A stretch of 64,000 nt of DNA. Origin: Chamaelirium japonicum (Eukaryota > Streptophyta > Magnoliopsida > Liliales > Melanthiaceae). How positions within the stretch are numbered: position 1 is the stretch's first letter; every line of letters starts with the position of its first letter. The notes below the pieces were generated by a model, which searched no databases, was not told where the DNA came from, and was given only the letters and a program-made list of their open reading frames with translations. Positions 21,466-22,867 of the stretch are shown piece after piece. The DNA lies in assembly GCA_947650365.1 (NCBI GenBank), contig OX393552.1, forward strand, positions 25,165,664 to 25,229,663, given 5' to 3'. The position numbers and the translations under genes were made by a program.

Positions 21466-21577
21466 ATATATATATATATATATATATATATATATATATA
21501 TATATATATATATATATATATATATATATATATATATATATATATATATATATATATATTATATATATATATATATA
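21466..21577. repeat. (TA)n microsatellite, left border of foldback element C
   Basis: About 110 bp of TA repeat ending directly at ATACGGGGTATGAG. Confidence 0.97.
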
Positions 21578-22457
21578 ATACGGGGTATGAGTTGACAGCC
21601 CATTTCTCCATTTGGGCTGTCAGCTTACAGCCCTCCGATTGCCATCATGGACCATCCGTTTAAAAAAAAAAAACACCCAATCACCTCACCCAACAGCTCT
21701 CTCTCTCTCACACAAGCTCTCACGAGTCACGAGCTGCAGCCTCTCCCCCTCCCGACCACCCTCCACCATTCCCGTCTCCGGCCTCGGTCCCCTCCGGTGC
21801 CCCCAGTCCCATCCGGCCGTCTCCGGTCTGGCCCCAGGCCCTGCGCCCGCGTCCGGCCTGGCCCCAGGCCCTGCGCCTCCCGACCCCTACTCCCACCTCC
21901 GGCCCGGCCCTGCGCCCTGCGCCTCCCGACCTCCAGCCCACCTCCCGACACCTCCAGTCCACCTCCCGACCCCTGCTCCCGTCTCCGGCCGGCCCCCAGC
22001 CCTGCGCCCGCCTCCGTCCCGGCCCCCGTCCGCCGCCCCCTGCGCCTGTCGGATCAGAGCCGATCGCAGTCCCCCCCTCCTCCGGCGGAGATCGCTGGAG
22101 TCGAGCACAGCGGAGATCGCAGTCCCCCACTCCTCCGGCGGAGATCTGCATCTCGCCGTGGGAGATGCAGATCTGGTCACCGGAGGTCGGATCTGAGGGG
22201 GATCCGGTGCTGGAGGGAGACCCGGTGCCGGAGGGGAGAGCCGGTGCCGGAGGGGGAAGCTGGAGCGGGAGGTGGTCACCGTCGGGGAGGGGGAGAGGTT
22301 GCAGCTCGTGAAAGAGAGGGAGAGAGAGAGAGAGAGAGAGAGAGCTGTTGGGTGATTTTTTTTTTTTTTTTTTAAACGGATGGTCCATGATGGCAATCAG
22401 AGGGCTGTAAGCTGACAGCCCAAATGGAGAAATGGGCTGTCAGCTCATAACCCGTAT
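21578..22457. mobile_element. Large foldback element type C with GC-rich interior, between (TA)n tracts
   Basis: 880 bp. Arms of about 185 bp (21578-21765 and 22271-22457) are nearly identical in inverted order: ATACGGGGTATGAG, GACAGCCCATTTCTCC, TTGCCATCATGGACCATCC, an A/T run, CT/GA repeats and CACGAGCTGCAG. The 500-bp interior is very GC-rich, with repeated CCCAGGCCCTGCGCC and CTCCTCCGGCGGAGATC words. Long frames on both strands are proline/arginine-rich by-products of composition. The interior differs in base content from the arms and could be captured host sequence. Confidence 0.9.
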
Positions 22458-22458
22458 T

Positions 22459-22582
22459 CTATATATATATATATATATATATATATATATATATATATAT
22501 ATATATATATATATATATATATATATATATATATATATATATATATATATATATATATATATATATATATATATATATATAT
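22459..22582. repeat. (TA)n microsatellite shared by foldback elements C and A
   Basis: About 122 bp of TA repeat lying exactly between the right end of element C and the left end of element A copy 2. Confidence 0.97.
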
Positions 22583-22720
22583 AATGTGGCATGCGGCAAG
22601 TGCAGCACCGTACCGCAGCCGTCTGATGCACCTCTGCGTGCATGCGATGCACGCAGCGCGTGCATCAGACGGCTGCGGTGCGGTGCCGCACGTACCGCAT
22701 GCCACATTATAGCAGGACCA
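22583..22720. mobile_element. Foldback MITE type A, copy 2, between (TA)n tracts
   Basis: A 138-bp palindrome: TAATGTGGCATGCGGCA on the left pairs with CCGCATGCCACATTA on the right, and CCGTCTGATGCAC pairs with GTGCATCAGACGGC. Eight bases (TGGTCCTG on the opposite strand) extend the right end beyond the left. Same family as 14334-14471 but much better preserved. Confidence 0.9.
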
Positions 22721-22867
22721 TATATATATATATATATATATATATATATATATATATATATATATATATATATATATATATATATATATATATATATATA
22801 TATATATATATATATATATATATATATATATATATATATATATATATATATATATATATATATATAT
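22721..22867. repeat. (TA)n microsatellite, right border of element A copy 2
   Basis: About 147 bp of TA repeat. Confidence 0.97.

Follow-up and report, generated by a model that had tools for sequence, protein, structure and literature searches.

A foldback element and a palindromic element joined by TA repeats in a plant genome: a probable further case of mini-transposons settling in simple repeats

Why do a foldback element and a palindrome lie end to end within three long TA tracts, and were those tracts present before the elements or brought in with them? The question was raised by positions 21466-22867 of the window, that is, the whole stretch of 64,000 nucleotides analysed here, which belongs to contig 4 of a 1.52-Gb plant genome. 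The chain consisting of a TA tract, foldback C, a second TA tract, the second window copy of palindrome A, and a third TA tract was found to be real, with TA tracts of 112, 124, and 148 bp. Its parts are as follows, where positions are those of the window and TA tracts carry no strand.

21466-21577: (TA)n tract left of C, 112 bp by TRF with 98% matches, its last base shared with the C end
21577-22459, + strand: foldback element C, about 883 bp, with ends (G)AATACGGG.. and a GC-rich middle
22460-22583: (TA)62 tract common to C and A, 124 bp
22584-22719, + strand: palindromic element A, window copy 2, left end minus about 11 nt, right end GGACC
22720-22867: (TA)74 tract right of A, 148 bp

The borders in this chain had been described as exact to the base, which proved to be wrong. 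Element A reaches 22719 instead of 22708, with its right end kept but altered (..ATAGCAGGACC), and about 11 nt of its left end are absent, the TA tract passing directly into ATGTGGC. Similarly, the left terminal G of C is replaced by TA in the window. Since the first end of A and the left terminal G of C were both lost to TA, the reported borders are partly erosion borders. The self-complementarity of A amounts to 88% over 125 bp in window copy 2, and A folded as DNA forms a single extended hairpin (-70.9 kcal/mol, z -13.5), which none of 200 shuffles equalled. Counted on 20 intact copies, the intact length of A is 147-148 bp, from GAAATG to CCC(C). The best arm pair of C (21578-21661 / 22374-22457) spans 84 bp at 96%, and at looser similarity the arms extend over about 245 bp at 80%. 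Most C copies end in GAGAATACG.. / GAGAATACGGGGTATGAG, and nearly all C ends follow TA or TA plus GA, the single exception being found at a retrieved locus (L004:1327). Capture of the Pack-MULE kind was also considered for C and was dropped, as the comparison of two C ORFs with Pfam gave no match.

Element A is present twice in the window, each time beside a different TA-bounded foldback, in agreement with the original observation. The other copy adjoins foldback B, and TA tracts are also found around B and a further foldback, D.

14336-14467, + strand: element A copy 1, between short TA tracts (14347-14454: 82%)
14478-15030, + strand: foldback B, TA on both sides, with hairpin modules at 14543-14647, 14699-14804, and 14853-14958
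15042-15145: (TA)n tract right of B
59316-59389: (TA)37 tract left of D
59390-59774, + strand: foldback D, ends related to C, with hairpin modules at 59440-59558 and 59607-59725
59775-59875: (CT)n(TA)n tract right of D

Seven TA tracts of at least 16 bp could be counted in the window, six of which lie no more than 11 bp from a foldback end, while the seventh lies 54 bp from a foldback with a (CT) tract between them. A placement test was conducted on eight window foldbacks whose bounds were entered by hand, and revealed a TA tract at 7 of the 16 element ends compared to a mean of 0.07 in 20,000 random shifts; 7 of the 20,000 shifts likewise reached seven ends. Five of these eight foldbacks touch TA and three do not.

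Both A and C are many-copy elements in this 1.5-Gb genome. Querying the genome with A yielded 2,254 first-look candidates; the 40 that were scored, the window copy among them, all had at least 93% identity. With the whole chain as query there were 3,832 candidates, and 40 of these were scored as well. In a set of 52 A-like units taken from the window and the retrieved loci (near-duplicate L011 included), TA of at least 12 bp was present on both sides of 44 units and on one side of 8, the units having been chosen as continuous matches, so that interrupted ones would be missed. On the other side of these eight, a 10-bp TA was present in four and no tract was found in four. Because the loci were retrieved as the top-scoring hits of A or of the whole chain, older copies may have TA flanks less often. 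Two of the retrieved loci, L010 and L011, are near-identical, lie about 93 kb apart on contig 11, and carry the same A insertion, which is apparently located inside a larger foldback; their GA tracts differ (33 and 21 bp).

The junction of C, TA, and A recurs with different flanks at L002, L003, L006, L007, and L008, which are a biased sample because they were drawn with a query holding both C and A. C is also joined by TA to A at L022, a locus drawn with A alone. Both sides were inspected at 28 loci for which A alone had served as query (L010 and L012-L038). Two of these 56 sides lack a tract, and 24 of the 54 tract-bearing sides run on into another detectable foldback; two of these 24 continuations rest on weak matches (L018 left and L019 right). 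A simple repeat ends 23 of the 24 continuing foldbacks, one a poly-A run (L010 right). The other 30 tract sides have no detectable foldback beyond them, and several visibly start with known element ends (C in L022). Since tracts of this kind thus link A with other foldbacks at many loci, the chain is explained neither by chance, which had been called a poor explanation from the start, nor by an accident of local assembly.

Based on this analysis, C and A are non-autonomous hairpin transposons (MITEs) whose movement was most likely due to a Mutator-like (MULE) transposase, and the putative MULE partner would carry ends GAGAAATGC/GGGGCATGC or GAATACGGGG. Targeted insertion of MULE-like elements into TA repeats, with the junction repeats changing later, is considered the probable course of events. 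A MULE transposase preferring (TA)n would insert an element into a pre-existing repeat, and the insertion would split this repeat and leave TA on both sides as the target for the next element. Repeated insertions of this kind could produce chains joined by TA tracts, if the events followed one another in this presumed order. The junction repeats would keep slipping after insertion, whereby TA erodes the element ends and may itself grow, and a GA tract could grow at those GA ends that share the register of the TA. The reading is built on the anatomy of the elements, the TA flanks of most copies examined, the recurrent chains, the lack of any visible duplication beyond the TA, and the register dependence of GA, all of which were observed directly. 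The choice had been put as one between TA tracts as hot spots and TA tracts delivered with the elements. Hot spots are favoured, because foldbacks with different ends lie at TA, which fits a target preference, and because no duplication was seen outside the tracts. The choice itself was incomplete; the junction repeats change after insertion as well, and a third ingredient is therefore needed beside hot spots and delivery.

Plant mini-transposons are known to insert in TA repeats and to accumulate there as chains, and since SaTar arrays and MuTAnT empty sites have already been published, the present chain adds a new case to a kind already described. SaTar elements of guayule and rice are non-autonomous MULEs that carry inverted repeats and are strung together by (TA)n into arrays without nesting (PMC5907723). 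Among 51 SaTar sites on rice chromosome 1, the other subspecies has a TA repeat free of the element at 20; 9 were conserved, and the rest were deleted or unassembled (PMC5907723). SaTar elements, which are reported from guayule, rice, sorghum, and citrus, resemble those described here in their small size, their inverted repeats, and the TA or other simple repeats on their flanks, and likewise form linear arrays in which repeats connect unrelated elements (PMC5907723). The present loci show the same features as the SaTar type, namely a small inverted-ended element, repeats on both sides in most copies, and arrays of unrelated elements. However, SaTar elements are larger, the smallest being 233 bp (sorghum) compared to 148 bp for A, and 10-bp duplications and partner MULEs were demonstrated for them (PMC5907723). 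The Ac-mMITEs of pineapple also have TA flanks, clusters formed by adjacent insertion, and GA/TC tracts beside ends starting with GA, for which slippage was proposed by the authors; copies with 9/10-bp duplications were shown there, while a GA tract tied to the TA register is a feature of the present elements (PMC8449440). MuTAnT of Medicago is likewise a hairpin in TA repeats with G-run ends and variable loss of terminal bases, and its empty sites have a mean of nine TA repeats, the occupied sites having longer tracts (PMC4486113). It is represented by 218 copies with a known autonomous relative and 9-bp duplications, in contrast to the 2,254 first-look candidates, 40 of them scored, for A (PMC4486113). 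Copies of SaTar, Ac-mMITE, and MuTAnT outside repeats have 9-10 bp duplications. Micron of rice and TAFT of maize are also described as inserting in (TA)n. The present case adds one more plant genome to those with transposon arrays joined by simple repeats.

The GA tracts at the element ends were assessed for their register with the adjoining TA. Among A and C ends, at least three GA units were present at 27 of 34 ends in register with TA and at none of 4 ends out of register (Fisher p 0.0045), and over five end types the corresponding values were 37 of 53 and 0 of 5 (p 0.0044), the test thus holding only 4-5 out-of-register ends. For A alone, the ends in register had either no extra GA (4 ends) or at least seven (20 ends), never one, while all three ends out of register had exactly one extra GA, as was the case for all 5 out-of-register ends over the five end types. 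Ends in register with only one or two GA units also occur (one in C, one in Acg, and four in Agg). If the element brought the GA tract along, the tract could not be matched to the register of the insertion site, and it was therefore probably made in place. This suggests a simple rule for the birth of compound (TA)(GA) microsatellites, which would arise in register at transposon ends.

The origin of GA tracts after insertion and their dependence on the TA register also agree with a growth model, according to which elements inserted into TA of only about 6-10 bp and the long tracts arose wholly later by slippage or repair on each side. This model overlaps with the preferred reading, from which it differs in the TA length at the empty site, and can be regarded as possible but rather unlikely. 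The replacement by TA of end bases in both window elements is consistent with it, as are flanks of merely 10-19 bp TA at some sites and empty sites of 6-8 bp for maize TAFT, going by their citation in PMC5907723. However, TA-joined chains would need the tract as a target from the second insertion at the latest. Moreover, the rice empty sites are TA microsatellites of variable length (PMC5907723), and the Medicago sites have a mean of about nine repeats (PMC4486113). Taken together, the published empty sites of rice, Medicago, and maize TAFT fit targeting plus growth.

Delivery of the tracts by the elements is improbable. Here, TA would either be part of the mobile unit or be added as filler to a circular intermediate, which then enters a genomic repeat by recombination, as in the model of PMC5907723. 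The presence of tracts on both sides of most copies (44/52) would be expected in this case, and the mixed parity of the ends (15 even and 5 odd) is unlike that of a single fixed duplication length. However, the GA tracts follow the local register and do not travel with the element, and a scan of 48 A-like units with tracts on both sides (one without left flank) revealed no duplication outside the TA tracts. The words common to the outer flanks were 5-6 bases long at most and were present in 8 units; the scan covered only identical words of at least 5 bases within 16 bases, so that imperfect ones could be missed. TA carried inside the element was rejected on this basis, since an outer target duplication would be expected and none was seen in the 48 two-tract units. 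The same result is no argument against the circular form, because a circle recombining into a repeat leaves no duplication.

The TA repeat hides the length of a target duplication but not its parity, and the phase of the ends is therefore informative. Among the 20 intact A copies, TA/G (the slash marking the element border) was present at both ends in 15 and AT/G at one end in 5, while AT/G at both ends was found in none. Two of the odd-phase copies, L017 and L019, have one end that is one base shorter, and three of the five are clear. Pure TA duplication predicts 20 of 20 copies in one phase, and duplications of 9 and 10 bp, the lengths published for related elements, allow a mixture. The mixture bears on Tc1/mariner-type MITEs, in which a TA dinucleotide duplication would have left TA seeds that later expanded. 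This origin appears quite doubtful; TA/G at both ends in 15 of the 20 copies is in its favour, but AT/G at one end in 5, three of them clear, is against it. The ends GAGAAATG / GGGGCATG are also presumably unlike those of Stowaway elements. Instead, GAGAAATG / GGGGCATG recall the GGGG of MuTAnT (PMC4486113) and the GA/TC of Ac-mMITEs (PMC8449440). An assembly artefact by collapsed or mis-joined TA repeats is hardly credible, for although long pure TA is hard to assemble and exact tract lengths may be wrong, C-TA-A recurs at six other loci with different flanks and chains with other foldbacks occur too.

Duplications of 8-11 bp were also searched for at 104 inverted-repeat pairs of the window and the retrieved loci with edges free of TA, GA, TC, and CT repeats, many of which are inner modules or neighbour pairs; 10 matched and none was convincing. 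The comparison of flanks among the retrieved loci gave no usable empty site, as it was swamped by flanks that are elements themselves. A 133-bp foldback located away from TA at 54346-54478 of the window has ends (AATGCTATTCAGCC) that resemble the A-family end by eye, and no duplication was found at its edges.

The ends of C and D are alike, with up to 88% identity over 26 nt, while the middle of C is different and GC-rich. Palindrome modules of about 115 bp were found in B, D, and many foldbacks of the loci retrieved with A or C, two forming each core and three that of B. A total of 92 modules were present in 26 of 36 sources, and 41 of the 42 neighbour pairs were spaced 47-63 bp apart, the remaining one being spaced 105 bp. 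For 32 of the 40 multi-hairpin cores, a simple repeat lies 15-200 nt away on both sides and bounds two shells. The repeats hold TA on both sides in 30 of these 32 cores and on at least one side in all 32; as the choice of the 32 favours repeats by construction, only this TA content is informative. Single-linkage clustering of 31 two-hairpin elements produced eleven shell groups, nine of which had at least two members. Core alignments of at least 150 bp, made on the same strand only, were obtained for all 49 same-shell pairs (median identity 81%) and for 172 of 416 different-shell pairs (median identity 72%), and in some elements cores with 90-92% identity lie under shells without similarity. 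Example cores are located at the following positions.

Window 14543-14958
Window 59440-59725
L013:1057-1348
L037:1731-2023
L008:208-500
L035:1041-1332
L020:1031-1315

One clade of 12 cores (100/100) holds three shell groups, S0 with eight members, S5 with two, and S6 with two. The likeness of S0 to S5 and S6 shells was at the shuffled level (z of the best pairing -0.4 to 2.5 in 32 pairs), whereas the cores inside them share 72-92% identity; the S5 and S6 shells showed weak similarity to each other (z 4.0-5.9, 4 pairs). In four different-shell pairs the identity drops near the core edge at both ends, whereas in the same-shell control it stays high except in the first 20 columns. The core tree speaks against an exchange of parts to the extent that seven of the nine shell groups tested can each be placed in a single clade and the whole labelling takes no more than the minimum of 10 changes, so that a few old exchanges would be sufficient. 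The splitting of S2 on this tree probably results from misoriented cores, since the cores are near-palindromic and were oriented by small score differences.

As far as sequence comparison can tell, cores that share 90-92% identity under unrelated shells point to an exchange of cores or ends. Such an exchange could proceed by conversion between cores; alternatively, one end may be replaced, with the new sequence then being copied across the palindrome to the opposite end. Nesting of the core by insertion into a small foldback was considered separately and rejected, as in two alignments the shells continue the inverted symmetry to the core with no direct duplication at its edge. A comparable situation is described in Drosophila, where the foldback-like Galileo elements swap internal regions and ends between subfamilies; however, the Galileo ends belong to subfamilies of one element, while some of the present shells are without similarity (PMC3573991). 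It can be proposed tentatively, at somewhat less than even chances, that TA-joined arrays are places where transposon families exchange parts and where new combinations of ends and cores, and with them new mobile families, arise. If the core-shell mosaics are upheld genome-wide, such arrays would create new transposon families, which is testable on whole genomes.

At two retrieved loci (L017:1692-2111 and L008:629-1009), one half of an A element seems to be merged with a double-hairpin element, as would result from a deletion between two neighbours in an array. Elsewhere in the window, a 92-bp palindrome with 96% self-complementarity is located at 60031-60122, not at TA, and a tandem duplication with a 294-bp unit, 1.8 copies, and 99% matches is located at 43366-43897. 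A 710-amino-acid open frame at 36758-38890 is copia-like, with RVT_2 reverse transcriptase, retroviral SH3-like, and integrase domains.
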